From Azoarcus sp. CIB (GTDB lineage: Bacteria > Pseudomonadota > Gammaproteobacteria > Burkholderiales > Rhodocyclaceae), in assembly GCF_001190925.1 (NCBI RefSeq), contig NZ_CP011072.1, positions 310,001-374,000 of the forward strand: a DNA stretch of 64,000 nucleotides. Reading direction: 5' to 3'. The notes under the pieces are model-generated. The model saw only the letters and a list, made by a program, of their open reading frames with translations, made no database searches and had not been told where the DNA came from. This document shows positions 10,098 to 63,810 of this stretch, in pieces. The position numbers and the translations under genes are program-made. Each line of letters begins with the position of its first letter. Position 1 is the first letter of the stretch.

Positions 10098-10757
10098 TTA
10101 CTGAACCGTGCGGGCGACCGGACCGTCCTTCTTCTTCGAGTGGCACAGGCGGCACTCGGACACCGGGAAGGCAACCTTGCCGTGGCACACGCCGCACTTC
10201 TGCCCGAGAAGGATGGCCGCCATGCTGATCTGGTTGGCGCCCTTTTGCGGGATGAAGATTGCGGGGTGGCAGTTGGAGCAGTCAAGCCACTCGGTGTGCT
10301 GCTTGTGCGGGTAGACGACGTCTGGCATCGATCCCTTGACTTCGCGGACGATGTTCAGATCCATCACGACCGGTACCGCGTTTGCATCCACACGGTCCCA
10401 GCGCGGGTTGATCGCGCGATCTTCGAGGGCCTTGACCCAATTGACGCGGTTGCCGGCGTTGCTGCGGGGAAGTGTTTCAAAGGCGGACAGAGGGGGCATC
10501 AGCGCTGCGGTGCCTTCGCTGGCGGGGTCGTGGATGCCGTCCTGCGACGGGGGCAGGTTGCGCTGATTGGCCGGCTTGAGCAGGCGGTTGAAGCGGTTGA
10601 CGTCGGTCGCGGGGGCGGCTGCAGCAGGTGCGGCCACCGGGGGCGCGGCGGGGGCGGCCGCGGGCTTGCCCTTGGCCTCTTGGGCAATGGCAGGCGCCGA
10701 GCCGAACAGGGCGGCGGCGAACACGGTCAGGAGAAGGGTTGGAATACGGCGGGTCAT
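10098..10757 (-). CDS. Triheme c7-like cytochrome (long form, copy 1)
   Basis: 219 residues with a signal peptide (cleavage near AIA-QE), an Ala/Pro-rich linker (residues about 30-50) and a C-terminal heme domain with three CxxCH motifs: CSNCH, CGVCH and CRLCH. Upstream histidines (Y-P-H-K-Q-H-T-E-W-L-D) can serve as distal ligands, which fits a bis-His c7/c3-type fold. The middle of the protein (N-A-G-N-R-V-N-W-V-K-A-L) recurs in the paralogue at 17841 (N-A-G-N-Q-V-R-W-V-R-A-L). The ATG overlaps the stop of the 143-residue triheme gene by 4 bases, so the two are co-translated and probably work as a pair, likely passing electrons through the periplasm. Confidence 0.92.
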   Translation of the reverse strand: MTRRIPTLLLTVFAAALFGSAPAIAQEAKGKPAAAPAAPPVAAPAAAAPATDVNRFNRLLKPANQRNLPPSQDGIHDPASEGTAALMPPLSAFETLPRSNAGNRVNWVKALEDRAINPRWDRVDANAVPVVMDLNIVREVKGSMPDVVYPHKQHTEWLDCSNCHPAIFIPQKGANQISMAAILLGQKCGVCHGKVAFPVSECRLCHSKKKDGPVARTVQ

Positions 10758-11185
10758 TTCTTGCTACCTCCTTGCCCGACGGGAACTGCCAGTTTCTGGA
10801 TGGTGCTTTCGTGCACTTGCGTGGGGGTATTGGGTTTGCCGGAATGGCACAGGTCGCAGTTCTCGACCGACCAGGCGACTTCGCCGTTGTGGCATGCGCC
10901 ACAGAACTGGCCGTCAATGATCTTCAGCATCGTGATCTCGTTGCCGCCCGCCTTGAACTGGAAGCCGAGGTCAGCATGGCAGACCTTGCAGCGGAAGCGG
11001 ATCCGGTGGAACCAGTGCGGGAAGATCGCCGGGCGCATGCCGGCCGCGTCGGCATAGTTGTTGATGACGATGTCGCCATACTCGGCGCGGCTGTCGGACG
11101 GGGTCCAGAGCGTGATGGCCACTACGGCAAACAGCAGCGCAGTGAGCCCACGACGGACTCTTGCTACCCACGGGACCTGCTTCAT
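10754..11185 (-). CDS. Triheme c7-like cytochrome (short form, copy 1)
   Basis: 143 residues. A signal peptide is followed by a compact domain with CKVCH, CGACH and CDLCH, and distal-ligand candidates in F-P-H-W-F-H-R-I-R. The A-E-Y-G-D-I-V-I-N-N start of the mature protein and the W-S-V-E-N-C-D-L-C-H segment are almost identical in the paralogue at 17449, so the pair was duplicated. Small triheme c7 cytochromes such as PpcA are periplasmic shuttles between inner-membrane quinol oxidation and outer-membrane conduits; that role is inferred here. This is the first gene of a leftward unit, preceded by a 453-base gap. Confidence 0.92.
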   Translation of the reverse strand: MKQVPWVARVRRGLTALLFAVVAITLWTPSDSRAEYGDIVINNYADAAGMRPAIFPHWFHRIRFRCKVCHADLGFQFKAGGNEITMLKIIDGQFCGACHNGEVAWSVENCDLCHSGKPNTPTQVHESTIQKLAVPVGQGGSKK

Positions 11186-11505
11186 AGTTCAACCCTCTTG
11201 AAAACGTAAACCGTTTCTGCCAGCCAAAGTGCCCGAGATTCCGCCGGCTGGCAACCAAACGAATGTAATCGCCCTCTTGGCCGCGCCAGACGAATCCGAC
11301 ATGGTTTTGGAGGTTCTTACTGTCGCACCGAGCTTGCCCGTCTTTTTAATCAACTCTCCCCGACCGGGCCACGCTGCGCGTCGGACTGGTGCAAAAAGCA
11401 AGAATTGAGCCCGGCGTCTATTACGATCGGCGTACCCCATGGCAGCCGATCGACAGGCTCTAGCTGCCGGGCGAATGTAACTGATTGTATTGCGCGTGAG
11501 AATGC

Positions 11506-12268: not shown

Positions 12269-13509
12269 AGTCTGACAATCCGGGGTACGACAATGAGTGC
12301 GAAGTAGGCGACGCCGACGATCGTGATGGTGCCGCCCACTCCGGTGAGTGCGGCGGCGATGATCGCTCCGGGCTCCGCGTCTGCCGGGCTGAATCCGGTC
12401 TTGCGTGGCGCGCCCAGCACGCCGCTCCACGCAAGACCGCAGATCAGCGTCGTTATTCCGAAGGCGTAGATCGAGAGCGGTCTCCGCGTCGGGGTGGCAC
12501 GTTCGCGAGCATTGTGCGCCGGCGACAGGCGTGCAATGACCGCTGCCATTTGTGCGAGCGTAAACGCGCCGATTGTACCGTGATAATGGGCTGGAATCAG
12601 CGTCGTCTGACTATCGATGGCGGTGCCGGCGAAAATGCCGAGGGAATATAATCCGAGAGATGCAGCAAATCCGTCGGCTCGACGGGCGCCCGGCTGGAAT
12701 GCGAGGAGCAGGCCGAAGATCAGCGGGGCCGGCCAGTTCGCCCAGCGCATGATTTGAGTGTGAAGGCCGTGCAGGGTGTCGTGATCGACCCCTCCAAGGA
12801 GCAGTGCGGGGGCGAGGGCTGCAGGCAGGGATGCTGCGGCGAACAAGGCGACCGTGACCCGTGGGGAGGGGGCGCCGGCTCCGGAGTTCTGTGCCAGCCG
12901 CAACCATATCGCCATCATCAGCGTCACGAAGCCGAATTGAAGGATGTGTCCGGCGCCCCAGAGGGTGTCGACCAGCCCCATCCCTTGTCGCCATGCGAGC
13001 AGCAGGTACATCGCCCCCATGAAGAAGGGCAGGCGGGCGATGGCGAAGCCGCATTCGGCGGCGTCGCGGGGGCGGGACAGGGAGATGCCTGCGGTTAAGA
13101 GCGTTGCGAGTGCAAACAGCGTCAGCGATCCGAGAAACAATGGATGGTCGAGATAGGGGATGTAATTGGCGAGGGTCGGTGTGCCGGGGGCAAGCAGGCC
13201 CGTCGCAATAACGCCGAGCGCCCCGGCAGCGCCACAAAGGTTAAGTATCCCAGCGAGTTTTTGGCGGCGCGCGTCGAGTCTTTCGGTCCATAGCGCGCTC
13301 GCCATCGAGAAATACCATAGCAGTGTGGCCAGGTTTACATGCACCACGAGTGCGCGGGGAAAGCTGTCCGAGGCTATTAGTGATGTGAGGACCGGGGTGC
13401 GCGCGAGCACGAGTAGAGCGGCCGCTACCGAGGACAGGCCTAGCGACATTGCCGCCGCAAGGAGCCATCGCTGAGAGACCACCGTGGGTTGAACGCGCGT
13501 CTGCGTCAT
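12193..13509 (-). CDS. Heme-copper oxidase subunit I-like membrane protein without the Cu(B) His pair
   Basis: 438 residues and about 12 transmembrane helices. Landmarks of oxidase subunit I are visible: a helix II histidine (V-V-H-V-N-L-A-T-L-L-W-Y), the helix VI W-G-A-G-H-I-L-Q-F segment, and the helix X H-x-H (I-P-A-H-Y-H-G-T). The helix VII segment that should contain two adjacent histidines for Cu(B) reads A-P-A-L-L-L-G-G-V-D-H-D, with no His-His. The low- and high-spin heme ligands therefore look retained while the copper site looks lost, and O2 reduction is unlikely. It sits between ccsA and the TPR gene, overlapping the ccsA stop by one base (TGATG). It may be an electron-transfer or heme-handling membrane partner. 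Helix alignment was done by eye. Confidence 0.75.
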   Translation of the reverse strand: MTQTRVQPTVVSQRWLLAAAMSLGLSSVAAALLVLARTPVLTSLIASDSFPRALVVHVNLATLLWYFSMASALWTERLDARRQKLAGILNLCGAAGALGVIATGLLAPGTPTLANYIPYLDHPLFLGSLTLFALATLLTAGISLSRPRDAAECGFAIARLPFFMGAMYLLLAWRQGMGLVDTLWGAGHILQFGFVTLMMAIWLRLAQNSGAGAPSPRVTVALFAAASLPAALAPALLLGGVDHDTLHGLHTQIMRWANWPAPLIFGLLLAFQPGARRADGFAASLGLYSLGIFAGTAIDSQTTLIPAHYHGTIGAFTLAQMAAVIARLSPAHNARERATPTRRPLSIYAFGITTLICGLAWSGVLGAPRKTGFSPADAEPGAIIAAALTGVGGTITIVGVAYFALIVVPRIVRLCKSRTATMPPHSPSQPAATFAAAR

Positions 13510-14330
13510 CACACGGCTCCTTGGTGCGGGGCGGCGGAGATGAACGGTACGCCGAAGAATGTCAGGAAGGCGGTGATGAACACCGCAAGTACCAGTCCAG
13601 CGTGTGCCGGCGGCGAGAGGCGATAGGCAAGGCGGGCGTGAATGGTGAATGCGACCGTCAGCCAGGTTATGAACGCCCAAGTTTCCAGCGGATCCCAAGC
13701 CCAGTAGCGGCCCCAGGCATCCTGGGCCCAGATTGCGCCGGCGATAAGCATCAATGTGTGGAAGATCAGTCCGATTGCCATGCAGCGGAAAGCGAGCTCG
13801 TCGAGTTGAGGGTTGGCCGGGAGGTGGGCCAGACGTTGCCGTCCGATTCCGGCATGGCGCATGAGGATCACGCACGACAGACCGACAGCCACCAGCACTG
13901 CACCGAGGAAGACCTTTCCGAGTCCGATATGGATGTACAGCCAGGGGGTGTTGTAGGTAGGGGGGTAATGCCCTTCGCCGGGGTGGGCGACCATCAGCCA
14001 GCCCAGCATGATGAACATCAGCGGCATCACGATCGCGGCAGTTGCACGAATCCGGGAGATGCGCCAGTAGGCCAGGGAATAGGCGGTCATCAAACTCCAC
14101 ACGTTCGAACACAGGATCTCGAACATCGTGATGAAGGGGCCGTGTCCGAGGCGATCCCAGCGCAGCCCGATCGATAGGGTCTGTAGCGCAAGTCCGGCAA
14201 GCATGAGCACGAGTACCGAACGTTCCGGTCGTTTACCCAGAACGACGCCCACGACGGCAACGACACCCGCGAGTACGTAGGCTGTCACTGCGGCCCAAAG
14301 GATCTGCAGTTCTTGTTCCATTTCAAGCAT
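13509..14330 (-). CDS. ccsA: CcsA cytochrome c synthase subunit (System II, copy 1)
   Basis: 273 residues with about eight transmembrane helices. The tryptophan-rich WWD loop is present (W-G-R-Y-W-A-W-D-P-L-E-T-W-A-F-I-T-W), together with the conserved histidines in L-G-H-G-P-F, L-Y-I-H-I-G, T-I-H-A-R-L and the C-terminal A-P-H-Q-G. CcsA with ResB exports heme and ligates it to CxxCH sites in the periplasm. The gene overlaps the end of resB by 8 bases and is followed by the oxidase-like gene. It differs clearly from the second copy at 56660, so the two are diverged paralogues, possibly dedicated to different multiheme substrates. Confidence 0.95.
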   Translation of the reverse strand: MLEMEQELQILWAAVTAYVLAGVVAVVGVVLGKRPERSVLVLMLAGLALQTLSIGLRWDRLGHGPFITMFEILCSNVWSLMTAYSLAYWRISRIRATAAIVMPLMFIMLGWLMVAHPGEGHYPPTYNTPWLYIHIGLGKVFLGAVLVAVGLSCVILMRHAGIGRQRLAHLPANPQLDELAFRCMAIGLIFHTLMLIAGAIWAQDAWGRYWAWDPLETWAFITWLTVAFTIHARLAYRLSPPAHAGLVLAVFITAFLTFFGVPFISAAPHQGAV

Positions 14331-15381
14331 CCCACGGCCTGGCCGTGAATTTTTTCCAAAAGTGCGCGGCCAGACTCATGACCGCTAGCGCACAAGCAGC
14401 AAGAAGCCAAGGCAAGGTCCAATCGTAGAATACGCGGTAGCCCATCCAGCTGCGCAGCCCCTCGAATTCGAGGGTGCCTTCTGCGGTCTGCAGCGACTCT
14501 CCCGGGCGCATTTCATGGCGGTCGCGGCCGATTCGCACAACAAGCCGGTATCGTTCCGGCAGCCGGAACGTCGTGTGTTCTGCGGGGTCGAGGAGAATCT
14601 CGTCGATGTCCAGCATCACCCAGATCGACAGCGCGCTGCCGGGAGGGGTCCATTCCGCCGCCTGGCTGTATTCCTTCAGAGGGTAGGGCGGAAGCTGAAC
14701 GGACCCGCGCAGATCGGTCCCGTGAGCGTTGCGCCACCGGAATGTCGGCGCGAATCCCTTGTTGAACGTCGTGTAGAAGCGATATCCGGACAGAACAAGG
14801 GGGGTCTGGTCGCCGATCAGTTCCTCGTGCCAACGCCCATCCGGGCCGGCCCATGCCACCTCGTTGCGGGTAGCGCCACGTTGGAGTCCGGGCGCGTAAT
14901 CGATCCGGAAACCCTTGTTCACGAAATGCACGCGCGAAAGGTCGCCTGCATGCAGAGGCCCTTGATCGGACTCGGAGAGAGTGCCGTCGAACGGCACGCC
15001 CTCGGTGACGCCGACATAGCCGTTCAGGTAGGTCAGTCGTCCCGCAGCGACGAGCAGCAGCAGAACGATCAGGGCAAGATGGAAGACGAGCAATGCCGTC
15101 TGGCGCCGGAACACGCCATTGGTCAGCACTGCTGCCAGCAGATTGAGCGCCAGCAGGACAAGCGGGACGACCAGTGGCCATGTGCGGGCCCCTTCCCTCA
15201 GATAAGCAAACGCGACCCCGCTTCCGAGGAGAGCGATCAGCGCCAGGGTCAGCCGTAGCGAAGCGAGGAGGCGCAATATCCATGCACCCGCCGATCTTCG
15301 TTCCGGGATGATAGTGAGATCCGCCCAAGCCCGGTCGACGCTACCCTCCGTTGCCTTGCCCTCCTTAACAGCACGAACCAT
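14323..15381 (-). CDS. resB: ResB/Ccs1 cytochrome c assembly protein (copy 1)
   Basis: 352 residues: three N-terminal transmembrane helices, a large periplasmic beta-rich domain (about 110-300) and a last helix (L-P-W-L-L-A-A-C-A-L-A-V-M-S-L-A-A). The ResB signature helix L-L-V-F-H-L-A-L-I-V-L-L-L-L-V with its histidine is present. ResB holds the apocytochrome and partners CcsA. It is shorter than many ResB proteins but nearly the same size as copy 2 at 60125, which shares the R-L-T-Y and S-W-M-G-Y-R signatures. It lies 18 bases after the NHL lipoprotein gene in the same operon. Confidence 0.92.
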   Translation of the reverse strand: MVRAVKEGKATEGSVDRAWADLTIIPERRSAGAWILRLLASLRLTLALIALLGSGVAFAYLREGARTWPLVVPLVLLALNLLAAVLTNGVFRRQTALLVFHLALIVLLLLVAAGRLTYLNGYVGVTEGVPFDGTLSESDQGPLHAGDLSRVHFVNKGFRIDYAPGLQRGATRNEVAWAGPDGRWHEELIGDQTPLVLSGYRFYTTFNKGFAPTFRWRNAHGTDLRGSVQLPPYPLKEYSQAAEWTPPGSALSIWVMLDIDEILLDPAEHTTFRLPERYRLVVRIGRDRHEMRPGESLQTAEGTLEFEGLRSWMGYRVFYDWTLPWLLAACALAVMSLAAHFWKKFTARPWDA

Positions 15382-15399: not shown

Positions 15400-16500
15400 T
15401 CATTCCGCGTCGGCCTTCGCTCCGCCAAGGTACTGGAAGATCGTTACTCGTCCATTGAACGTATCTGCGACGAACACACGATTGAACGAGTCGACCCACA
15501 CCCCAGCGGGGAGATAGAAATTGCCGGTTCCCTGGCCGACGCCGCCGATCGGCATCAGGAACTCCCCGGCCTCGTTGAAGATCAGCAAATTATCGTAATA
15601 AGACTCGACGACGTAGATATTGTTCTCCCTATCGACGCCGACGCCCTTCGGTCGAACGAGATTACCGTAGTACAGGCCGCGTTTGCCGATGATCTGCGGT
15701 TTCCCGTCGCCCTCGAGCGGGATCACCTGCACGCGGCTGTTCATCGTGTCCGTCACGTAAAGCTTGTCTTGCCCAAGCGCGATGTGTGTCGGGAAATTGA
15801 ATTCACCTGGGGCCTCGCCGCGCTCGCCGATGATCCTCTCCAGCCGGCCATCGGCGCCGAAGACCTTGATGTCGTGTGCGTAGGTGTCAGCGACGTAGAT
15901 GAGGCCGGTGACCGCGTCGCGTGCAATTCCTGTGGGGCGCTGTAACACGCCTGCGCCGATGGGAGGCTGCGGGTTTCCCTGCGTGTCCAGGTGTGCGACG
16001 AGCTGCAGCTCCGCATCGGAAACCCAGATACCGCCACCTTCGGCGAGTGCGACGCCAATGGGGGCGACGAAACGACGCAAGCCTACAGCGTATTCCCAGA
16101 TCTTGAGTTCACCGGCTGGTTTGTCGAAGACGAAAACGGCGGCACGGCTGACGTCGGTGACGAAGATCCGTTCGTGCTCATCCGCAATCACGGCCTGCGG
16201 TCGCTGTAGCACATTCGGCTTTTCCTCGTCGAACAGACCGACTACCCAGGCGAGAAAACGCACGATTCCTTTCGAATCGTCCTCGCGGACAAAATTCTCT
16301 TCGCCGGTGAGCTGGCCGGCGAACTGATAGCGGGGAACTTCCGGTTCGGCCGGCCACATGAGTCGCTTGCCTTCTGGCGCTTCGAGCAGGCCGTAATGGA
16401 GGCGCGCCGGCGTGGCCTGGGTCGCGCACCCGGCCAGCGTAATGGCAAGTGCAAGAGTCAGCCACGAGAGGACGGGCGACGCGGTACTTTTCAAACTCAT
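15400..16500 (-). CDS. NHL-repeat beta-propeller lipoprotein
   Basis: 366 residues with a lipoprotein signal (L-A-G-C at about residue 24). About six NHL blades follow, each with the L-x-x-P-x-G-I/V-A-x-D and I-Y-V-A-D-T-Y/F patterns (for example R-P-T-G-I-A-R-D, L-Y-V-T-D-T-M-N-S-R-V-Q-V, V-F-V-A-D-T-F-N-G-R-V). Propellers of this class mediate protein binding. It pairs with the second propeller gene just upstream (5-base gap) and is closely related to the NHL lipoprotein at 23445, which opens with the same W-P/F-P-x-P-P-E-x-P-R-Y/F-x-F/Y segment. NHL proteins are repeatedly found beside extracellular cytochrome genes in Geobacter. Confidence 0.93.
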   Translation of the reverse strand: MSLKSTASPVLSWLTLALAITLAGCATQATPARLHYGLLEAPEGKRLMWPAEPEVPRYQFAGQLTGEENFVREDDSKGIVRFLAWVVGLFDEEKPNVLQRPQAVIADEHERIFVTDVSRAAVFVFDKPAGELKIWEYAVGLRRFVAPIGVALAEGGGIWVSDAELQLVAHLDTQGNPQPPIGAGVLQRPTGIARDAVTGLIYVADTYAHDIKVFGADGRLERIIGERGEAPGEFNFPTHIALGQDKLYVTDTMNSRVQVIPLEGDGKPQIIGKRGLYYGNLVRPKGVGVDRENNIYVVESYYDNLLIFNEAGEFLMPIGGVGQGTGNFYLPAGVWVDSFNRVFVADTFNGRVTIFQYLGGAKADAE

Positions 16501-16505: not shown

Positions 16506-17441
16506 TTAGGGCGGGGTGATGCTGAATACTCCGATCCGCCCGGAAGGGGCGTCGGCGATGTACGCGTGATATACGTCGATCGAGATCGCGGTAATGTCCA
16601 CGAGCCCGAGTTGTGAGGGCTTCAGTGTGGCGACCAACTCGCCATGATCGAAGATCTTGAGACTTCGATCGCCCCGGTCAACCACCCATGTGCGGTCATG
16701 CGCGTCGATCGCAATATCCGACGGGTTGAGCAGGTCGCCTTCCCCATGCTTGCCGATAACGGACCCTTCGCGGTCGAAGTCGACTATGCAGCGGCAGCGG
16801 GGATCGATTCCGGCGACGCGCACCCGGTTGGCAGCGAGAAGCGTCGCTCCGGCGAACTCGTCCGGAAAACCGTCGCCTCTCCCAACGAGGGGCTCGCTTT
16901 TTCGCCCGGATGGGTGAAAGGCGAAAACGCCGCCTGCTGCATCGGATATCCACGGCCTGTTGAGGGTGGGTTCTATCACAATGTCAGCCGGTTGGAGGAC
17001 CTCATACTTTGCGCTGAACGTGACGATCGGGCGACCATCTCTTGTAAGGCGGGTGACTTCTCCACGATCGGGGCGGAGAACGTAGACGCTGCCGTCGATG
17101 CCGGCCTTGATGCGAACCCCTGGCAAAGGCGGTATCTCGCGCAGCGGCGTGATCGACTGGCTAACGGTGTCGATGCGCAGCAGCAAGCGCTGGCCGCTAT
17201 CGGCGACGTAGAGGTCGTGGCCGATTGCGGCCAGCGCGGTAGGATGCAGCAGTTTTAGATAAGCCCCGGTCGGGGGCTGCCCGGGGACTGGTGACGCTGG
17301 AGCCGAAAAGCCGCCGACAATCATCCTGTAGGGCGACAGGAAAGCGGAGGCGTGCTCGATGGCCGCCGCCTCGGAACCCATGTCGGCCCCGGCAATCTGG
17401 GCCAACGCGAGGAGCACGCTGCCGGCTAGGTTGCGCCACAT
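16506..17441 (-). CDS. Periplasmic NHL-like beta-propeller protein
   Basis: 311 residues from the ATG at 17441, which gives a proper signal peptide (V-L-L-A-L-A-Q-I-A-G-A). Repeats of the L-Y-V-A-D-S-G-Q-R-L-L-L, D-I-A-I-D-A-H-D-R-T-W-V-V-D-R-G and A-Y-I-A-D-A-P-S-G-R-I-G-V type indicate a five- or six-bladed propeller, weaker than in the next gene. There is no lipobox. It contains a D-P-R-C-R-C segment whose cysteines are not a heme motif. It lies 7 bases after the triheme gene and 5 before the NHL lipoprotein, so it belongs to the cytochrome operon. A binding partner among the cytochromes is likely but unproven. Confidence 0.82.
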   Translation of the reverse strand: MWRNLAGSVLLALAQIAGADMGSEAAAIEHASAFLSPYRMIVGGFSAPASPVPGQPPTGAYLKLLHPTALAAIGHDLYVADSGQRLLLRIDTVSQSITPLREIPPLPGVRIKAGIDGSVYVLRPDRGEVTRLTRDGRPIVTFSAKYEVLQPADIVIEPTLNRPWISDAAGGVFAFHPSGRKSEPLVGRGDGFPDEFAGATLLAANRVRVAGIDPRCRCIVDFDREGSVIGKHGEGDLLNPSDIAIDAHDRTWVVDRGDRSLKIFDHGELVATLKPSQLGLVDITAISIDVYHAYIADAPSGRIGVFSITPP

Positions 17442-17448
17442 GATGTAT

Positions 17449-17844
17449 TCACCAACGTCCGGGTCCGAGTGTTTCGTGGCCGCCGAAAATGCCGGGGGGC
17501 AGTCCCGCCTTCCCGGAATGACACAAATCGCAGTTCTCGACTGACCATGCGGTTTCTCCGTCATGACACGCGCCACAGAAGCGGCCGTCGATGATATCGG
17601 TCATTTTGATCTGGTTCGCGCCTGCCCGCATCTTGAAGCCGAGTTCCGCGTGACATACCTTGCAGCGAAACCGGATGCGGTGGAACCAGTGGGGAAAGAT
17701 CACCGGCCGCATGCCGGCCGCTTCGGCGGCTCGATTGATAACGACGTCAGCATACTCCGCTGTCGCGCGCGGCGCTGCAAAAAATGGCAACACGCACACC
17801 AGCGCAGCACAAACCATCCACAGCGAGGTCCGCGGCGCACTCAT
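17449..17844 (-). CDS. Triheme c7-like cytochrome (short form, copy 2)
   Basis: 131 residues from the ATG at 17844, overlapping the previous stop by 4 bases. A signal peptide ends near A-T-A-E-Y. Three heme sites (CKVCH, CGACH, CDLCH) and F-P-H-W-F-H-R-I-R distal histidines are present. It is very similar over its heme domain to the 10754 product, but with a different C-terminal tail (G-L-P-P-G-I-F-G-G-H). Gene order within this pair is the reverse of copy 1: here the long form comes first. Confidence 0.92.
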   Translation of the reverse strand: MSAPRTSLWMVCAALVCVLPFFAAPRATAEYADVVINRAAEAAGMRPVIFPHWFHRIRFRCKVCHAELGFKMRAGANQIKMTDIIDGRFCGACHDGETAWSVENCDLCHSGKAGLPPGIFGGHETLGPGRW

Positions 17845-18497
17845 CTGGTTTTGCCTTCGGTCTTGCGAGCCGGGGGAGGCGTGTTCGGTGCGACTGCGGG
17901 TTCGGGGGGCGGAGTGGCGCTGGGTTGCGCAGCAGCTTCGCGTTCGAGTTCGGCCAGTGCGTCGGCGCGCTTGACGCTGTGGCAGCGGCCGCATTCGGTC
18001 AGGGGGAAAGCCACGGCGCCGTGACAGACCCCGCATTGCTCGCCCTGCAGAATCAGGAACATGCTGATCTTCGTCGCGCCTCTTTGCTTCTTGAACAAAT
18101 GGTCATGGCAATTCGTGCAGTCCAGCCACTCGTTGTGCACGCTGTGCGGAAAGCGCACGACCGGCATGCCCCCGTTGAGGTTCAACAGCACGTCCTTGTC
18201 GTAACTTTCGCTTTTCAGCGGTTTCCGCAAGCTTGATCGCGGGTTGATCTGGCCCTCCTTCAAGGCGCGGACCCAGCGGACCTGATTGCCCGCGTTGTCT
18301 GGAGTGAGGGGAGACAGCGCATCTGCGGGCTGTTGGAGCACTTTCACGGCGGGACCGCTGGAATCACGAAGCCCATCCTTGGCAATCGGGAGCCAGGAAC
18401 GGTCGTCAGCCCTTGCGGACTGGGGGAACACCAGCAAGAGCAGGCACAGGCAGCAGATGAAATGTCTCTGCGAAGTGCCTCGTAGGCGAGCAGACAT
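17841..18497 (-). CDS. Triheme c7-like cytochrome (long form, copy 2)
   Basis: 218 residues: signal peptide, an N-terminal non-heme region (about 30-105), then CTNCH, CGVCH and CGRCH with distal histidines in F-P-H-S-V-H-N-E-W-L-D, and a Pro/Ala-rich C-terminal tail of about 40 residues absent from copy 1, which instead has its Pro/Ala linker at the N-terminus. Likely a periplasmic electron carrier coupled with the short form. It follows the outer-membrane barrel gene, so barrel and triheme cytochromes are transcribed together, as expected for a porin-cytochrome conduit. Confidence 0.91.
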   Translation of the reverse strand: MSARLRGTSQRHFICCLCLLLLVFPQSARADDRSWLPIAKDGLRDSSGPAVKVLQQPADALSPLTPDNAGNQVRWVRALKEGQINPRSSLRKPLKSESYDKDVLLNLNGGMPVVRFPHSVHNEWLDCTNCHDHLFKKQRGATKISMFLILQGEQCGVCHGAVAFPLTECGRCHSVKRADALAELEREAAAQPSATPPPEPAVAPNTPPPARKTEGKTR

Positions 18498-18606: not shown

Positions 18607-21084
18607 TCAGAAAGAACCGAACTCCCGGCTGACCCGGAAGAAGATCAGTTGGTTACGCCGTCCTTCGATCTCGGCAATACGATACTGCAGTTCCGTGTCG
18701 AGACGGCCGATGCGGTAGAACAGCCGCTGATCGAGATCCAGCGTTGCGCGGTCTTGTTGGCGCTGGGCATTCGGATTCCCGAATCGCCGCGAGTCGTCAC
18801 GGTTGGTGTTCGCACGGAAATCGAGTCGATAGCGCAGGCCGCGGAGCCCGAAAACTCGACGATGACTGTAACCCAGGCCTCCGGCTAGACTCGTATTGCC
18901 GCTGCGCGACGTGTCTTCGCGAAAGATGGGGCGACCCAGTTCGTCGACGAGCACTACCGGTTGATCGTTTTCGGACTCCTGACGCGACCATTGCCATGTC
19001 ATGTTTGAATCGAGTTCCGAATTCTGATTGATGCGCCAGCTGCCGGTGAGCTGGACATTAAGCATCTGGAAGGACGATGTCGTGTCTCCGGTGGTGCGGC
19101 TGTCCGAGGCACTGGCGCTGAGGTAACCGGTGAGCGCTTCGCCGGCATTCGCCTGCATGCCAAGGCTCGCGCCATGGCTAAGCGTAGTTGCGCTCGAGGA
19201 GCCGATGCCGGTAGAGCGCGAGCTCGAGACTGACTGGTTCAGGCTACCGCTGAGGGTGGTTTGCGCGCTCGTCTGCCAGGTGCGCATCAGCGAGTGCCCT
19301 ACCGATCCGTTGAGCGAGCGGAATGAGTCTCCCTCGCCGGATGTCGCATTCGACAGCGACGCGGACGTGAACCAAGTGTAGTCGTAGTTGCCGAAGCGCA
19401 GCGGATCGCCGCTATAGCTGAGACCCAGAGATTGGTTCGACGTCAGGTTATTGTCAGTGTCGGCGCTCAAGCCGGCCGAGCCGAAAATGCTGAGATTGCG
19501 GCTGGCCTGGTAGTTCAGGCTGGCAGCGCCGCCAATCGTCCGATTCGTGAAATTCGTTCCGCCGACCGTATTGTTCGTCTGGAAATAACGGAGGTTTGCC
19601 GAGCCCCGCAATTTCGATTCCGCTGGCGACCAGTTTCCATAGCTGAACACTTGCAGACTCTGCGTCGTTGCGGAATCCGTGTCCAAGTCGAACTGTTGGC
19701 CGGTAAGACTCGCGTTCGTGCTCAAGGACAGTTCATCGCTATAGGCGAAACCGTGATTGGCGCCGAGGAAGTAGCTCTTCCCGGTCTGCTCGGCGGCTTG
19801 ATTCCGCGAGAAGTCTCCGGTCAGATTGATGGAGTGCCGCTCCAGCGAATTCGAAAAATTGCCGAAGACACGGTCGACGACGTCCGAGCCGAAATCGCCG
19901 GTCAGTTCGCTGCGGTCATAGCCTGCCGCGGACGTCCATCGCCCGGTCTGTGGTCGATAGTCCTGTCGTAAGGACAGGCGCTGTTGTTTGATGTTCGAGT
20001 CCGAGAATGAGCCTTCGCTGCGGCTGTCCGACAGCGTCAGGGAGGCCGAAAATGGGAAGCGGCTCTGGGGGAAGAGCTGGAGCGTTCCACTCCCCGTCAC
20101 GGAGGTGCCCACCAGATTGTTCGATGAGACGTCGCCGGACTCCTGCGATCGAATCGAGGTAAGCGCGAAATCGCCTGAAACGAGCGCGAAGTAGGGCCTC
20201 CAGATGTAGGAATTGGCGCGCAGCCGGCCTTCGTACACCTGACTCGTTGAGCCCGACGAGGTGTCCGAGCTGTTGCGCCTCACGCCGACCGAAACGATGC
20301 CGCCCCAGCGGATCGGGGCGACGCCCCAGCGCTTCTGGGTGGGGGCGGACGAATTTGGTGTAGGAGAGCCCTTGCTGCGCGAAGGCACGGGAAGATCGGC
20401 GACCGTTGACTCTATGTTCGCTTCTTCGGCCGGCAGAAACTCCTCGTCCCCGACGACCTTGGCATCGGTGCTCCCGGTTTGTGCAGGCGACGCCGCATCT
20501 TCGGATGCCACCATCAGCGGGGCCACAGGTGCTGCAATCGTGTCGGCCGTGCGCTTAGTCTTGCGCGATGCGTCAATGAGCGTATCCCGCGGTTCGGACT
20601 TTGCGATCGTCGAACGTCGAACGGGAATGGCGGGGGCGTCAGCACTGCCGGGCTTGTTGCCGGGTTTCGGTTGCTCGGGCGCCGGAACGGACGCAGATGA
20701 ATTTCCTTCGACTAACGACCCAGGTCCGGCGGCCGCGGACTTTGCGGTGGCGATGCCGGGCAGCTGATACGTCCAGCTCAGGGTGAGCGGAGGAGATTCC
20801 GGTGTTGCGGACGAGGAGTCGATGTCCACGGCCGCCGTGGGCCGGACTTCGCCCTTCGTCTCGCGATCCGTATGCAGGCTTGCGAGAACTGTCGCGAGAC
20901 GCAAGCGCGACTGTACCGGGGCGTCGGCCGGTTGTGACGTCGAAGCTGCGAGGGCCGGCATGGTAGCCAAGCCCAGCAGCATTCCGCCGCATAGGGGCGG
21001 AATGGAACCGTGGCAGGCCGACACGAGCCTGCGTGTCATGTGGGCTGCTGAATTGTTCGCTCGCACTAGCGCAGAACGCGACAT
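18607..21084 (-). CDS. Large outer-membrane beta-barrel, candidate porin of a cytochrome conduit
   Basis: 825 residues (an in-frame ATG at 21039 is an alternative start). After a signal peptide comes a Ser/Pro/Ala-rich, probably disordered region to about residue 250. From there to the end runs a regular series of alternating amphipathic strands rich in Ser, Thr, Asn, Gly, Tyr and Trp, ending R-V-S-R-E-F-G-S-F with the C-terminal Phe expected by the BAM machinery. More than 20 strands seem present. There is no TonB box or plug. Size and position between a prolyl isomerase and c7 cytochromes match porins of electron-conduit loci (MtrB/OmbB type), although I see no direct sequence signature of those families. 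Function as a cytochrome or filament secretion pore is inferred. Confidence 0.85.
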   Translation of the reverse strand: MSRSALVRANNSAAHMTRRLVSACHGSIPPLCGGMLLGLATMPALAASTSQPADAPVQSRLRLATVLASLHTDRETKGEVRPTAAVDIDSSSATPESPPLTLSWTYQLPGIATAKSAAAGPGSLVEGNSSASVPAPEQPKPGNKPGSADAPAIPVRRSTIAKSEPRDTLIDASRKTKRTADTIAAPVAPLMVASEDAASPAQTGSTDAKVVGDEEFLPAEEANIESTVADLPVPSRSKGSPTPNSSAPTQKRWGVAPIRWGGIVSVGVRRNSSDTSSGSTSQVYEGRLRANSYIWRPYFALVSGDFALTSIRSQESGDVSSNNLVGTSVTGSGTLQLFPQSRFPFSASLTLSDSRSEGSFSDSNIKQQRLSLRQDYRPQTGRWTSAAGYDRSELTGDFGSDVVDRVFGNFSNSLERHSINLTGDFSRNQAAEQTGKSYFLGANHGFAYSDELSLSTNASLTGQQFDLDTDSATTQSLQVFSYGNWSPAESKLRGSANLRYFQTNNTVGGTNFTNRTIGGAASLNYQASRNLSIFGSAGLSADTDNNLTSNQSLGLSYSGDPLRFGNYDYTWFTSASLSNATSGEGDSFRSLNGSVGHSLMRTWQTSAQTTLSGSLNQSVSSSRSTGIGSSSATTLSHGASLGMQANAGEALTGYLSASASDSRTTGDTTSSFQMLNVQLTGSWRINQNSELDSNMTWQWSRQESENDQPVVLVDELGRPIFREDTSRSGNTSLAGGLGYSHRRVFGLRGLRYRLDFRANTNRDDSRRFGNPNAQRQQDRATLDLDQRLFYRIGRLDTELQYRIAEIEGRRNQLIFFRVSREFGSF

Positions 21085-21096: not shown

Positions 21097-22155
21097 TTAC
21101 TTGCTCGTAACCAACCCCTTCTTGGCGAGCGCCGGATAGCGTGCCGTGTTCAGCTCGATTTTCGCCTTCTTGCGCAGTTGCTCCTTCAGGCTTTGCCATG
21201 CTTCGTCGCTGAGATCGCGTTTGAGCAAATCGCTTGCGCGGGACTTCACGGTCTCGAAATCATGATGTTTGGGAGGCTGCAGGGCTTCATAGCGGAACAG
21301 GGCAATGCCCTGCAGGACTCGCGTCGGAGGTGAGAGGTCGCCCGGCTTCATGTCGTCGATCCTTTCCTGGATGCCCTCCGGCAACATGCCGCGATGCATG
21401 TAGCCGAGGTCGCCCCCGTTTTCGGCCGATTCATGGCGCGAGCGCTCTTTTGCCAGTTGTGCGAAATCGGCGCCGCCTTCGGTGAGTTTAAGCCGCAAGG
21501 CGCCGGCATCGGTTTCTGCCGCCTCCCAGGCCGCGGTGGGTGCCGAGGGGTCAACCGACAGCAGGAGCAGCGAAATCCGCATCTTCTCGGGTTCGGTAAA
21601 TTTCTCGGGATGCTTCTTGTAGTAAGCGAGAACCTTGTCTTGAGCGGGTTGCGGGACATTCCGCGTCTTGGCTTCGAGAGTGGCCAGCATGTCGTCCTCT
21701 TCGAGGCGCTCTCGCAGTGCCGGCAGAATCTGCTCCCGCTCCTGTTGCCAGCGTGCGCTCGATGAGTAGCGCTTTTCGTAAGCGGCAATCTTCTCATCGA
21801 TCGCTTTTGCATTCGCCTTCAGGTCACGACGCTTAATTTCTTCGACGAGCAGTCGGCGGTCGATCATGTCGTTGGCGACATCGCGGACAAGTTGTTCGAC
21901 TTCGCCTTCGGGCGGGGTGCCGTGATAGAACTTTTGGCGGATCGCTTCCCGGGTCGCTGCATCGAATTCGGAGGAGCTGATCACCTTGCCATTGACGACC
22001 GCCAGGTATGGGGGCGAGGCGTGGGGGTCGGCGGGCCTCTGTGCCGTAGCGGCCGCCTTGGCGGTGTCGGGTTTGGGCGCGTCGGCCGCATGGGCGCCGA
22101 AGGCAATGAGCGTTGCGGCGATAGTGCCGGAAACTGCGCGAGCGATCATTTTCAT
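21097..22155 (-). CDS. PpiC/SurA-type periplasmic prolyl isomerase
   Basis: 352 residues from the ATG at 22155 (GAGAA site). A signal peptide leads to a SurA-like helical N-terminal chaperone domain (V-V-N-G-K-V-I-S-S-S-E-F-D, residues about 50-180). A parvulin domain follows with F-A-Q-L-A-K-E-R-S, E-N-G-G-D-L-G-Y-M and the L-P-E-G-I/x-x-R-I motif, then a C-terminal helix. Such enzymes assist folding of secreted or outer-membrane proteins. The gene is 12 bases upstream of the barrel gene and just after the terminator of the tetraheme gene. Dedicated prolyl isomerases near nanowire cytochromes are reported for Geobacter, so it may assist the barrel, the filament cytochrome, or both. Confidence 0.92.
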   Translation of the reverse strand: MKMIARAVSGTIAATLIAFGAHAADAPKPDTAKAAATAQRPADPHASPPYLAVVNGKVISSSEFDAATREAIRQKFYHGTPPEGEVEQLVRDVANDMIDRRLLVEEIKRRDLKANAKAIDEKIAAYEKRYSSSARWQQEREQILPALRERLEEDDMLATLEAKTRNVPQPAQDKVLAYYKKHPEKFTEPEKMRISLLLLSVDPSAPTAAWEAAETDAGALRLKLTEGGADFAQLAKERSRHESAENGGDLGYMHRGMLPEGIQERIDDMKPGDLSPPTRVLQGIALFRYEALQPPKHHDFETVKSRASDLLKRDLSDEAWQSLKEQLRKKAKIELNTARYPALAKKGLVTSK

Positions 22156-22237
22156 CAGGAATTCTCGTCTTGCTGGGCTGCTAGTGTCTGCTTCGGGCCA
22201 GCGGCGACGCAAGTTGGTTGCGATATGCGATTGTGAC

Positions 22238-22270
22238 AAAAAAAAGGTCAGGCGACCTTGTCGCCTGACC
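22238..22270 (-). terminator. Strong intrinsic terminator after the tetraheme gene
   Basis: A perfect 10-bp stem (GGTCAGGCGA / TCGCCTGACC, loop of 5) is followed on the leftward strand by eight T residues (A-run at 22238-22245). It sits about 70 bases past the tetraheme stop and about 80 bases before the isomerase start, so it should set a high-cytochrome, low-chaperone expression ratio. Confidence 0.92.
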
Positions 22271-22339: not shown

Positions 22340-23152
22340 TTACTTGGTGTGGCAGGCCAGGCAGATCTTGCTGCCGGACGTCGTGACGCGCATGAAGTTC
22401 ACGTCGGAGTTCGTGCCAGCCTTGTCGGTATGCGGATCGTGGCAGGACGCGCACTCGACCGACGGGCCCGTTGCATTGTTCGTGAAGGTACGGGTGTAGA
22501 GGATGATGTCGTTCTTCGAGCGGGTGCCAGCGCCGGTGGTGTCAACCCAGAAGACCTGGGAGCCATTGATCGACTTCGTCGTCACGGCGTTGAAGTCCGT
22601 GTCGGCACACGTACCGCTCACCGTGTTGGCCGAGCCGGTCAGGCCGCCGCCGCAGTACTGGATGCCGATCGGGTGGTCGTTGGTCAGGTCCTTGGTGAGG
22701 TTGGCAACGCCGGTGACCTTGTTCGTGCCCGTGGTCCAGTTGTAGTTGCGGTCCGAGCCGGCGGCGTTCAGGCCGCCCGAGCCCGGCGCGTTGACCAGGT
22801 TGTCCATTGCCTGGGTGCCGTCGTGGCAGGACAGACAGGCAGCGGAGACCGAACCGACCGCCAGCACGTTACCGTCGATCGTCGACGAGTTCGCCGTCGA
22901 GTAGGTCGTGTAACCGGTGCTCGCGGGAATAGCCTTGTTCCACAGGGGGGCAGAAGCGCTCGTGTTCGCCGCGTGCGGGGTGTGGCAGAACACGCAGATC
23001 TGTTCGGTAGTGCTCTGCTTGTTCGGGCCCGGGCCAGGATTCGCGCCCGTAGCGGTCAGGTTATGCGGCGTGCTCACAATGCCCGCCGACGCGCCGCCAG
23101 CAATCAGCGCGAGCGCCGCGGCTGCGAGCGACAGTTTGAAGATTTTTTTCAT
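22340..23152 (-). CDS. Tetraheme cytochrome of the OmcE-like (nanowire) pattern
   Basis: 270 residues from the ATG at 23152 with GGGGG ahead. A classic signal peptide is cleaved near G-G-A-S-A-G. Four heme sites are present: CVFCH (53-57), CLSCH (106-110), CASCH (234-238) and CLACH (264-268). The only other histidines are His30 (P-H-N-L), His60 (H-T-P-H), His160 (N-D-H-P) and His241 (D-P-H). That gives eight His for four hemes, exactly what all-bis-His coordination needs. The spacing and the T-P-H / D-G / N-D-H-P / D-P-H signatures follow Geobacter OmcE, which polymerises into extracellular heme filaments using a ligand from the next subunit. The mature protein is Ser/Thr/Gly/Asn-rich. Cys167 and Cys182 could form a disulfide. 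Filament formation is inferred. Confidence 0.93.
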   Translation of the reverse strand: MKKIFKLSLAAAALALIAGGASAGIVSTPHNLTATGANPGPGPNKQSTTEQICVFCHTPHAANTSASAPLWNKAIPASTGYTTYSTANSSTIDGNVLAVGSVSAACLSCHDGTQAMDNLVNAPGSGGLNAAGSDRNYNWTTGTNKVTGVANLTKDLTNDHPIGIQYCGGGLTGSANTVSGTCADTDFNAVTTKSINGSQVFWVDTTGAGTRSKNDIILYTRTFTNNATGPSVECASCHDPHTDKAGTNSDVNFMRVTTSGSKICLACHTK

Positions 23153-23266
23153 GGTAACCCCCGATGGATGGTTAAACGGTTTATTAGTCATCAAGGACCG
23201 TGTCCGGGTCGTCGGACGGTTGTCGATGCTGACCTCAAAACGAATTTAAATGTTGCACGCTCTACT

Positions 23267-23282
23267 AGCAGGTTCCGGTCCA
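23267..23282 (-). promoter_or_regulatory. Weak candidate sigma-54 promoter for the tetraheme gene
   Basis: On the leftward strand TGGACC-GGAAC-CTGCT keeps the GG-N10-GC spacing with 4 of 6 and 4 of 5 consensus positions. It is in an unusually AT-rich 292-base leader (23153-23444) that also holds the inverted repeat CGCAA-AAAA-TTGCG (23308-23321) and the palindrome GGAATATTCC (23415-23424). Confidence 0.25.
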
Positions 23283-23444
23283 CCTGTTCGGCTGGCAGGT
23301 CGAATAACGCAAAAAATTGCGAAGATATTGTTTTTAAATGCTTTGTTATGGATTTTGCCGCTGCTTGAGGTTGCCTCGCAGATTTCAGGGTGCTGAAACC
23401 CGCGACGTGACAGCGGAATATTCCTGAACTCGGGAAGGTGATTA

Positions 23445-24569
23445 TCAGCGTTTGGAACCGCTTGATCGATTCACGAGGAAGCCTTGGTCCGCTGGCAGGT
23501 TGTATGGCCTGAAGACGTCGATCTTGGAGAACCACTGGTCGACGAAAAAGATCCGGCCGTCCTCGTCGACGGCGATGCCCGAGGGCAGAATGTACTGGGC
23601 CGGGCCGCCCTGCTCGGAGCGGTTGCCGATGTACATCAGCAGTTCGCCTTCCGGGTCGAAGATCTGGAAATTGCCGAATGCCGCATCGGCGACATAGACG
23701 TTGCCGTCGTTGTCGGTCGCGATCTCCTTTGGCCGGGCAAAATTACCGAGCTGGCGACCGACAGCGCCGAAGCTGCTGTGGTGGCTGCCGTCGGCGTTGA
23801 AGATCTGGACCCGGAAGTTGCCGCCATCGACGACATACAGTCGCCCGTCCTTGCCGATAGCCATGTCTCGTGGCAGATTGAATTCTCCCGGCCCCGTGCC
23901 GCGCTTGCCGATGTCCATGACGTGCCGGCCTGTTGCGGTCTCGAACACCCGGACACGATGGTTCTCCGATTTGACGCCACCGATGTCTACGACGTAGATC
24001 CGTTGTCCCGAGGGGTCGACGGTGACGCTGGAGATGCGGTCGAAGAGGTCCTTGCCCCCGATCTTGCGCAGGAATTTGCCGTCGCGGCTGTAGATGAAAA
24101 CCATCTTCTGCGTGGCGTCGGCAACATAGAGTCGTCCGGAGCGATCGACGTCCAGCCCGAGCGGCTTGACGAGTTGGCCGGGCTCCTCGTCGCCGATCGT
24201 AAAATACTTCGCGGTGGCGACGTCGAAGACCTTCACCGAGCGTTCGGCGGTGTCCGACACGAAGATGCGGCCGCGGTGAGCGGCGACCGCATAGGGTTTC
24301 GTGAGGAAGTGGCCGGTGCGCTGCGAGCCGGTCACCATGCGGCGAAACGCATCATCGCTCGTGTCGGTCTCGACGTCGGCCGAACTCGTGATCGTGCGTT
24401 CGTAAACGAAGCGCGGCTCGTCCGGCGGGCCGGGGAATACCAGTGGGCCAGTGGCGCGCGTTACCGGGGCTTCGCCGCCGATTTCCGCACATCCCGCGAT
24501 CAGGGTGACGCTGGCGGCGAGGGTGAGGGTGAGGGTGAGGGCGAGAAGGCGCGAGCTTGTGCGAGGCAT
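23445..24569 (-). CDS. NHL-repeat beta-propeller lipoprotein beside the tetraheme genes
   Basis: 374 residues from the ATG at 24569 (an ATG at 24614 is also open). A lipoprotein signal ends L-I-A-G-C. Six NHL blades follow, for example R-I-F-V-S-D-T-A-E-R-S-V-K-V-F, R-L-Y-V-A-D-A-T-Q-K-M-V-F-I-Y, R-L-Y-V-V-D-G-G-N-F-R-V-Q-I-F and N-V-Y-V-A-D-A-A-F-G-N-F-Q-I-F. It is a close relative of the lipoprotein at 15400. It lies between the two tetraheme genes, all leftward. A lipid-anchored propeller could tether or nucleate cytochrome assemblies at a membrane surface; that is inference. The hydrophobic part of its signal peptide is encoded by a short hexanucleotide repeat (see findings). Confidence 0.92.
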   Translation of the reverse strand: MPRTSSRLLALTLTLTLAASVTLIAGCAEIGGEAPVTRATGPLVFPGPPDEPRFVYERTITSSADVETDTSDDAFRRMVTGSQRTGHFLTKPYAVAAHRGRIFVSDTAERSVKVFDVATAKYFTIGDEEPGQLVKPLGLDVDRSGRLYVADATQKMVFIYSRDGKFLRKIGGKDLFDRISSVTVDPSGQRIYVVDIGGVKSENHRVRVFETATGRHVMDIGKRGTGPGEFNLPRDMAIGKDGRLYVVDGGNFRVQIFNADGSHHSSFGAVGRQLGNFARPKEIATDNDGNVYVADAAFGNFQIFDPEGELLMYIGNRSEQGGPAQYILPSGIAVDEDGRIFFVDQWFSKIDVFRPYNLPADQGFLVNRSSGSKR

Positions 24570-24689
24570 GCGTCGCGTCTTCGTGGAAGTATGGCGGTCT
24601 GTGAGCAGTTTCATCGGCGTGTCGGGCAGGAATGGTCTGAGATGGAAATGCGGCGTATCGCAGGTGGGTGGGGGCCGTGCGCGCTTCGC

Positions 24690-25445
24690 TCACTTGACGT
24701 GGCAGGTGAGGCACAGTTCGCTGGGATTGCTCTCGGTGCGGAGGAATAACGGGCGCACGGTGTGTGGGTCGTGGCAGCTGGCGCATTCCACGAATGGAAT
24801 TTCCGTTTGGTCTTCCTGATCAAGGCGTACGTAGAGCGGCACATCGAGACGGCCGCGCTGGGCCGATGAAGTGTCCTTGGAGACCCACCACACCGGGCGA
24901 TCGTCGACAATCCCGCGCTTGGCTTGGCGAAACCCGTCATCGAACTTGATTTGCTTTGCTGTGTTGATGAGTTTGCCGGCGCGTTGCAGGTCTTCGCGGA
25001 TCTGCTTGCGCTGCTCGGGTGTTAGCGCCCCTCGATAGGGGACTGCGAAGGGGTGATCGAGGCTTCCGCCAGAGATTCCGAAAGCCTGGGACGAATCGTG
25101 GCACGAGAGGCAGGCGATCGACTGCGAGCCAACGGCTTCGTTGCCCTCCTTTCCCAGGCGGCCGATGTCGTCGAACATCAGGAAGATTCCGTCTTTCGGT
25201 ACTGAGCTCTGCCACTTCGGCTGGGCTGCGTCGTCGGCGTTCGTGTCGGTCGGGGTGTGGCAGAAGACGCAGATCTGGCGCGGGTCAGCGCCTCCGTTGC
25301 CATTGATCTGGACGAGATTGTGCTTGCTGTTGCGCATGTCTATCCGCTGTGCCTGTGCCGGCAAGCTGCCGAGCGAGCTCAAGGCAAGAAGTGCGATCAG
25401 TGTCGTGATGAGCCGGAGTGGGGTCGAGAGGCGCGCGGTTAGCAA
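24690..25445 (-). CDS. Second tetraheme cytochrome, OmcE-like but lacking one distal His
   Basis: 251 residues: signal peptide (cleaved near A-Q-A-Q), then CVFCH (59-63), CLSCH (112-116), CASCH (221-225) and CLTCH (245-249). The protein follows the 22340 product closely at K-H-N-L (His42), D-H-P (His131), D-P-H (His228) and the C-terminal C-L-T-C-H-V-K. In place of H-T-P-H, however, it has H-T-P-T, so only three distal histidines remain for four hemes. Its middle is charged (a Q-R-K-Q-I-R-E-D-L-Q-R helix) rather than Ser/Thr-rich. It may be a periplasmic or terminal partner of the filament cytochrome, or one heme may be five-coordinate or take another ligand. Confidence 0.92.
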   Translation of the reverse strand: MLTARLSTPLRLITTLIALLALSSLGSLPAQAQRIDMRNSKHNLVQINGNGGADPRQICVFCHTPTDTNADDAAQPKWQSSVPKDGIFLMFDDIGRLGKEGNEAVGSQSIACLSCHDSSQAFGISGGSLDHPFAVPYRGALTPEQRKQIREDLQRAGKLINTAKQIKFDDGFRQAKRGIVDDRPVWWVSKDTSSAQRGRLDVPLYVRLDQEDQTEIPFVECASCHDPHTVRPLFLRTESNPSELCLTCHVK

Positions 25446-60128: not shown

Positions 60129-61159
60129 GGGATGGAAGAGGCGGCTGGAATGGGGCGGACGAGAATGCGTGAATAGAACCATACGAGCGACAGGATACCG
60201 AGCAAGACGGCACCGATGAGCCAGGGGCGGGTGGGGTCGGCGATGATGCGGTATCCCATCCACGAATCGAGTCGCACATACGTGAGAACGCCGCCCGCGA
60301 GCGTGAGCTGGTCGCCCGGTGCGAGAACGCTACGGCTGTCGCCGATGCGGAGAACGAGCTGTTGTGCGTCGCTGCCCGCTCCCAAATTGGTCCGTACGCT
60401 CGGCCCTTCGGTCCGTGCCGGGGCTTCGGCGTCCACCATCAGCCACGCAGTGCGGCCGTCGGGCAGCGTCCATTCGTTTGCGCCGGCGAAAGCGCCGTTG
60501 TTGCTGTCGCGCAGCTGGACGGTGCCCCAGTCCTCCGAGCCGTCGGCGGCCTGCCAGCGAAATACCGGCGAGAAGCCGCGATACCTGCTGGTGTAGATCC
60601 TGTAGCCGTCGATGATGAGCGGGATATCGTCGCCGATTTCCGCAACGTGGGTGCGTCCGTCCGCCGCTTGCCAGCGGACCCGGTTGTAGGTTGTTTGGTA
60701 GCGACCCCGCTCGGGATAGTTTTCCGTGAAGCCGAGGTTGGTGAATCGCAGTTCGGCAATCGTTCGATCGTGCAGGGGGCCGTGCTCCTCACCAAGCAGA
60801 TTGCCGTCGAAAGCGGTACCGGCGGTGACGGTTGCCTGGCCCTCGAAGTAGGTCAGGCGTGCAGCCACCAGCGCCAAAATCAGGGCCAGCAGCGCGAGAT
60901 GGAACACGAGCAGCGGCAGGTCGGCGCGGAATCGCCGGTTGGTGACGATTGCCGCGATCAGGTTCAGGGTCAGCAGCGAGAGCGGTGCCAGCATCGCCAG
61001 CGTCGCGCTGCGCTCCGGGGCCTTGGCCCACAGCGCGGCGCCGGCCATCACGACGAAAAAGGCAGCGGAGAGTCTGGGCGACGCGAGCGCAGTCAGCCAA
61101 CGGGGCATGCCGCCGGCACTCCCGAAGCGGCCGAGCCGCTCACTGGCAACCCGAAACAT
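60125..61159 (-). CDS. resB: ResB/Ccs1 cytochrome c assembly protein (copy 2)
   Basis: 344 residues from the ATG at 61159, overlapping the cytochrome gene end by 20 bases. Three N-terminal helices including P-L-L-V-F-H-L-A-L-L-A-L-I-L-A-L with the conserved His, a periplasmic beta-rich domain (about 110-305) and a C-terminal helix. S-W-M-G-Y-R and R-L-T-Y are shared with copy 1 at 14323. Acts with CcsA copy 2. Direct linkage to the 11-heme cytochrome gene suggests dedicated maturation. Confidence 0.92.
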   Translation of the reverse strand: MFRVASERLGRFGSAGGMPRWLTALASPRLSAAFFVVMAGAALWAKAPERSATLAMLAPLSLLTLNLIAAIVTNRRFRADLPLLVFHLALLALILALVAARLTYFEGQATVTAGTAFDGNLLGEEHGPLHDRTIAELRFTNLGFTENYPERGRYQTTYNRVRWQAADGRTHVAEIGDDIPLIIDGYRIYTSRYRGFSPVFRWQAADGSEDWGTVQLRDSNNGAFAGANEWTLPDGRTAWLMVDAEAPARTEGPSVRTNLGAGSDAQQLVLRIGDSRSVLAPGDQLTLAGGVLTYVRLDSWMGYRIIADPTRPWLIGAVLLGILSLVWFYSRILVRPIPAASSIP

Positions 61160-63746: not shown

Positions 63747-63810
63747 AACCTTTTGATGGCCGCGGGTATTTGGGCGCGCTCTGGGATGCGAAACGGTTAA
63801 TGCTAAACGA

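Follow-up and report, generated by a model that had tools for sequence, protein, structure and literature searches.

A probable Uet-type cluster of Azoarcus sp. CIB encodes an OmcE-class tetraheme cytochrome and a sister protein lacking one predicted axial ligand

Introduction

The closest described counterparts of the genes considered here are OmcE of Geobacter sulfurreducens (7tfs in the PDB), a tetraheme cytochrome that polymerizes into heme filaments, and the Uet (undecaheme electron transfer) complex. A passage on Gallionellaceae lists the components of this complex as the undecaheme cytochrome UetJ, the extracellular tetraheme cytochrome UetA, the triheme cytochromes UetDEG, the isomerase UetB, the NHL proteins UetHI and the porin UetC (PMC10734462), while another gives uetABCDEFGHIJ as a cluster of Tenderiales and discusses Uet for electron uptake (PMC12575090). 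A passage elsewhere reports UetJ from genomes of the Leptothrix group (PMC13386937). In this article, we describe a stretch of 64,000 nucleotides (bases 310001-374000, hereafter the window) of the single-contig 5.26 Mb genome of Azoarcus sp. CIB, which carries genes for two OmcE-class cytochromes, proteins A and B. The locus is probably a Uet-type cluster, assigned by gene content, in which A is UetA. As judged from sequence, we consider it probable that UetA would polymerize into an OmcE-class wire fed through the Uet porin conduit.

A link between Uet and OmcE may already be in print; one open-access article contains the words OmcE, undecaheme and Tenderia (PMC13264449). New in this work are the ligand-deficient sister protein B and an expression signature of UetA. 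The window is rich in heme-binding sites, with 43 CxxCH-coding sequences against 4.0 expected (about tenfold), a number that 0/100 shuffles reach. The closest named relative of the host is Aromatoleum toluolicum, whose protein A is 98% identical and whose DNA shows 94.5% identity across 20,880 bp; the probable betaproteobacterium proposed as host in an initial annotation, made from the sequence of the window, is thereby borne out. The features of the window are collected in Table 1.

Protein A is homologous to OmcE along its full length

Read from the ATG at 23152, protein A has 270 residues, four CxxCH motifs and eight histidines (His), of which H30, H60, H160 and H241 lie outside the motifs and would be the distal ligands. 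The initial annotation had given four CxxCH, exactly eight His and these same four positions, and the counts hold from this ATG; 'exactly eight' depends on it, because the listed TTG start (23194) would bring a ninth. The ATG fits better as the start codon, because a signal-peptide-like stretch follows it, 52 residues separate it from heme motif 1, and relatives have a Met in this region. That Met lies 38-80 residues ahead of heme motif 1 in all 80 relatives, and 67 of the 80 have K or R within five residues of it. Some tblastn matches to protein A extend a few residues upstream of ATG 23152. The relatives come from 80 loci picked by similarity to protein A alone, the best 80 of 166.

A phmmer search of protein A against all PDB sequences, with expectation values (E) up to 1, matched two distinct sequences, namely OmcE (2.4e-28) and the 'putative multiheme cytochrome c' 9yuq (4e-22), one entry of which comprises 16 identical chains and which is also homologous to protein B and to the undecaheme protein of the window. 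A profile made from the window and 74/80 loci (leaving out L038, L042, L043, L060, L106 and, for an in-frame stop, L046) matched OmcE at 1.4e-37 and aligned along the whole of it, including all eight ligands. Protein A thus shares with OmcE the order of its CxxCH motifs and the four aligned distal His; unlike OmcE, it is longer and has two further Cys, present in 59/81 and 58/81 rows. Every one of the 81 rows (80 relatives and the window) has all four distal His as well as heme motifs 1 to 3; the last heme motif is present in 80, one row being ambiguous. An in-frame TAG stop was seen in the A gene of a metagenome-assembled genome, at L012 (G009) and L046.

Protein B has seven histidines and lacks one predicted axial ligand

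Protein B likewise has four CxxCH motifs, with seven His, a count absent from the initial annotation. Its best match in the PDB is OmcE (1.8e-12), ahead of 9yuq (1.1e-10) and two weaker matches, and its profile, built from the window and 32/34 loci, matches OmcE at 6.8e-24 in two stretches and the profile of protein A at 3.3e-56. The profile search against OmcE suggested at the outset gave a match for A and for B, and the early reading of both as OmcE-like tetrahemes is upheld as to family by these searches. B is not an equivalent subunit, since it lacks one of the eight ligands.

Protein B was found in 34/80 loci, and its seven His are invariant in 35/35 rows, the window included. Three residues after heme motif 1 (the +3 place, H60 in protein A), His is found in none of the 34 relatives nor in the window, and 11 different residues occur there, whereas His is present at +3 in 80/80 protein A rows, 40/40 undecaheme (UetJ-like) rows and 8/8 pentaheme rows. 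Four CxxCH together with four aligned distal His are accordingly found in protein A and not in B. Compared with the other OmcE-class proteins, one lineage thus differs in exactly one axial ligand and has all the others.

In a quick, unrooted tree of 149 OmcE-class domains, B stands on one side of a single branch with an SH-like approximate likelihood ratio test (SH-aLRT) value of 99; the undecaheme domains group at 100, the pentahemes at 99 and the protein A rows weakly, at 61. The joining of undecaheme and pentaheme domains may be a long-branch artefact. Because the tree has no root, a loss of the +3 His in B can only be inferred. Two 18-heme frames with a weak match to A lack the +3 His and are not counted as OmcE-class.

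The missing His would have one of two consequences, depending on which residue donates the inter-subunit ligand: either one heme of B is open or differently ligated, or one inter-subunit bond is impossible. A passage on OmcE states that one ligand of heme 2 is a His contributed by the neighbouring subunit (PMC12203936); neither it nor the other literature passages searched name the donor residue. The same source overlays OmcE hemes on OmcS hemes 3-6, whereas another gives the first four. In protein A, His30, proposed as donor in the initial annotation, is possible, with no support over His60, the residue that B lacks and an equal candidate; either choice is a guess. We take the OmcS donor to lie at the same +3 place, which is our sole ground for leaning to His60, itself still a guess.

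Protein B accompanies protein A in the host family

Two genome searches, each scoring the best first-look candidates per genome, place B with A to different extents. Among 199 genomes of the host family, full-length A occurs in 18 (E 2.9e-66 or better; one with an in-frame TAG), and eight further genomes have weaker OmcE-class matches only. At E 1e-25 or better, the B profile matches exactly these 18 genomes and none of the remaining 181, the 18 being related genomes and not independent events. In a sample drawn from the class (274 genomes), A was present at E 2.1e-75 or better in the host and in 27 others; B was found in the host, in one of these 27 (G259) and in G285, a genome of 300 contigs without full-length A, while a fourth B-profile match (G352) falls inside the A gene of its genome. 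In the host family B therefore goes together with A, which does not need it elsewhere, and the idea that B is a part required by every such wire was rejected, with B in only 1/27 of the other class-sample genomes with full-length A.

These distributions bear on another reading of B, as a second electron carrier unrelated to filament ends. It would sit in the periplasm or inside the porin, and one of its hemes would be five-coordinate or have a different residue as ligand. That A does without B in most A-bearing genomes of the class sample speaks for such a carrier, as do conserved Arg residues that B has of its own; its presence in exactly the 18 family genomes with A and the gene order B-NHL1-A-isomerase, kept in 32/34 loci, speak against it, though they do not tell where B resides. 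We regard the chances of this reading as evenly balanced.

The gene neighbourhood resembles the Uet cluster

The neighbours of A recur across the 80 loci. Where the flank is long enough to tell, NHL1 is upstream of A in 66/71, the isomerase adjoins A in 70/72, the barrel lies downstream in 60/65, at least two triheme genes are present in 61/62 and NHL2 is present in 55/58; a UetJ-like frame is found within 10 kb in 40/58, many of these loci being cut short where the stretch ends, and B lies upstream of A in 31/69. Lipobox-like N-termini were found by a loose pattern in 41/71 NHL1 and 27/50 NHL2 frames. Leptothrix discophora is in the set examined (L108). As in the Uet cluster of Tenderiales, which is also reported from Gallionella, a tetraheme cytochrome, isomerase, barrel, trihemes and NHL proteins stand together, and an undecaheme cytochrome is encoded too; the initial annotation had not recognized this known cluster type. 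Unlike published Uet, the locus has an extra OmcE-class paralogue, B, and a host related to Aromatoleum, and about 38 kb separate its undecaheme gene from A, with a second one beyond the window. Two other described types were set aside: according to passages of one source, PCC3 has two very large cytochromes and PCC4 is without an extracellular cytochrome (PMC5566968).

Table 1. Features in the window (positions counted from its first base)
Feature	Position	Strand	Remarks
Triheme c7-type cytochrome	10098..10757	-	TIGR04257
Open frame with triheme c7-type cytochrome	10757..11188	-	TIGR04257
Cytochrome c assembly protein	13509..14330	-	Pfam Cytochrom_C_asm; NCBIfam CcsB below its cut-off
ResB-like cytochrome c assembly protein	14323..15381	-	
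NHL2, NHL beta-propeller protein	15400..16500	-	Lipobox-like N-terminus by eye (LAGC)
NHL3, probable NHL protein	16506..17576	-	Pfam NHL 20.1 against a cut-off of 20; no NCBIfam match
Triheme c7-type cytochrome	17449..18036	-	TIGR04257; likely ATG near 17844
Triheme c7-type cytochrome	17841..18497	-	TIGR04257
Predicted outer-membrane beta-barrel, UetC-like	18607..21084	-	28 predicted long strands in the last 590 residues
SurA/PpiC-type peptidylprolyl isomerase, UetB-like	21097..22239	-	Likely ATG near 22155
Intrinsic-terminator-like hairpin and T run	22244..22259	-	Between A and the isomerase gene
Protein A, UetA-like / OmcE-class tetraheme cytochrome	22340..23152	-	Signal-peptide-like N-terminus; mature from about 23083
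NHL1, NHL beta-propeller protein	23445..24614	-	Flanked by B and A; N-terminus lipobox-like by eye (LIAGC)
Protein B, OmcE-class tetraheme paralogue	24690..25445	-	Seven His; CVFCHTPT for CVFCHTPH
Undecaheme cytochrome, UetJ-like	61140..63878	-	11 CxxCH; about 38 kb from A; likely ATG near 63746

The barrel was modelled with AlphaFold from its last 590 residues (55/65 relatives), with a mean predicted local distance difference test (pLDDT) score of 92.5; counted from the listed elements, the model has the long strands of Table 1 and one further strand of three residues. Foldseek returned MtrB (6r2q_B) first, at 3.9e-9, tied with the colicin receptor Cir, and VIA-align placed MtrB at rank 31 (Z 14.6, root-mean-square deviation 9.2, 446 residues), the best other barrel reaching Z 16.8; the protein has no Pfam family at E 0.01. 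What the model shows is a wide barrel; it does not show kinship. The combination of a wide barrel with cytochromes recalls MtrCAB; unlike MtrCAB, the locus has a barrel of 28 long strands without a Pfam match at that cut-off, and trihemes in place of the decaheme MtrA.

Multiheme cytochromes can also serve as heme stores or electron capacitors, and the proteins of this locus might do so in the periplasm in a general way. The recurrent linkage to an outer-membrane barrel (in the loci counted above and in the model) and the extracellular position of the solved homologue OmcE argue against this, and we hold it to be very improbable.

Terminators and spacing set the A gene apart

The hairpin listed in Table 1 separates the A gene from that of the isomerase. 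Within the window it is not significant by scanning alone, because a looser terminator scan of 15000-26500 found 12 candidates against 10.8 expected; a scan of the same region for sigma-70-type promoters found none, with 2.1 expected. The comparison across loci is more telling. A strict scan of the 200 bases past each stop codon, with expectations from dinucleotide shuffles and leaving out an A row with three motifs as well as rows that contain N or whose flank is shorter than 200 bases, found a terminator after A in 34/78 loci against 1.6 expected. The same scan gave 3/71 for NHL1, 0/34 for B, 2/73 for the isomerase, 2/65 for the barrel, 0/45 for NHL2, 1/116 for the triheme genes (H3b) and 3/61 for cytc2. 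With the looser scan the count after A rose to 45/78 (9.2 expected), and gene sets other than A, the isomerase and the barrel showed little or no excess. On the other side of A, the median gap from NHL1 is 261 bp in 67 loci, with script-estimated start codons. Taken together, these signals suggest that A is set apart in transcription, as would be expected of a subunit needed in many copies.

They also bear on a reading in which UetA is monomeric, forms no wire and docks on the barrel, where it would be the outermost part of a porin-cytochrome complex. Homology does not prove polymerization, and the passages on Uet in Gallionellaceae describe UetA only as an extracellular tetraheme cytochrome of a porin complex (PMC10734462). 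Set against this are the enriched terminators downstream of A and the long spacing ahead of it, which suggest more copies of UetA than of the barrel, and the retention of all eight OmcE ligands. A monomeric UetA seems doubtful to us.

A probable UetA wire fed through the porin conduit

The preferred reading remains that of a UetA wire supplied through the Uet porin. UetA would be exported, perhaps folded with the help of the co-encoded isomerase, and would most likely assemble into an extracellular heme wire, as OmcE does. In one direction or the other, electrons would move among the triheme cytochromes, the wide barrel of the outer membrane and the wire. The isomerase and the propellers would help export or anchoring. 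UetA would be transcribed partly as a unit of its own, in excess over the conduit genes, and the OmcE-class protomers in protein B and at the start of UetJ would be specialized for other positions. In favour of this reading stand the full-length homology to OmcE with its eight aligned ligands, the invariant distal His, the 16 identical chains in one entry of the homologue 9yuq, the recurrent neighbours and their Uet-like content, the barrel model, and the terminators downstream of A with the gap ahead of it.

In the undecaheme protein, the leading four-heme domain belongs to the OmcE class and has, by eye, all eight ligand His. A more elaborate version has dedicated wire ends: UetA would repeat, B would be a chain end joining on one face only, and UetJ, in which an OmcE-class protomer is fused to a part with seven further hemes, would be the adaptor at the opposite end, linking the wire with the porin or with the outer substrate. 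This elaboration strikes us as unlikely.

Several points weigh against a UetA wire at a Uet conduit. The Uet match rests on gene content, and the undecaheme gene lies tens of kilobases (about 38 kb) from A. The strict scan finds a terminator after A in under half of the loci, and the looser one gives a small excess after the isomerase (12/73 against 6.7) and the barrel (11/65 against 4.5 expected) as well. The AlphaFold model of protein A (75 rows) is poor, with a mean pLDDT of 62, and yielded no usable structural match: among 29 Foldseek matches none reached E 0.001 or better, and VIA-align gave none with Z of 2 or more, so that structures neither support nor refute an OmcE fold. Finally, the physiological role of cytochrome filaments as wires is disputed, according to a passage of one article (PMC11077965).

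If the reading is true, OmcE-class wires occur across a range of Beta- and Gammaproteobacteria and not in Geobacter alone. A passage of a recent review calls wire assembly and secretion an active area of investigation (PMC12307469). In many genera, such a locus places an OmcE-class subunit beside a barrel, carriers and propellers as well as a folding factor, which could serve to export and feed a wire, and because these candidate genes sit beside the subunit, wire assembly becomes testable by gene deletion. Protein B, for its part, provides a natural variant with one ligand gone.

Further genes in the window and genome

Other OmcE-class genes were noted in passing. A second, different UetJ-like gene with 11 CxxCH lies outside the window (genome 377125-379923, minus strand), likewise with an OmcE-class domain first. 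An OmcE-class pentaheme is encoded far from the cluster (genome 3158787-3159896, plus strand), and an NHL1-like propeller gene precedes the pentaheme gene in 8/8 relatives. In two metagenome-assembled genomes of Chromatiales (L097, L115) an 18-heme frame sits between an NHL1-like frame and A.

Beside the undecaheme gene of the window are a second ResB-like gene (60125-61345, minus strand) and, nearby, two adjoining sulfatase-modifying-factor-like genes (58323-60263, minus strand). Three tandem paralogues (27882-30056, 29969-31651 and 31655-33499, minus strand) have, by eye, a multi-span N-terminus with an FHFDDW-like motif; the first two carry C-terminal tetratricopeptide repeats by Pfam, and L038-L043 alone gave matches to the first paralogue. 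We take all three to resemble O-glycosyltransferases of the TMTC/GT-C kind. OmcE filaments are glycosylated. A multicopper oxidase gene lies at 5697-7316 of the window, on the plus strand.

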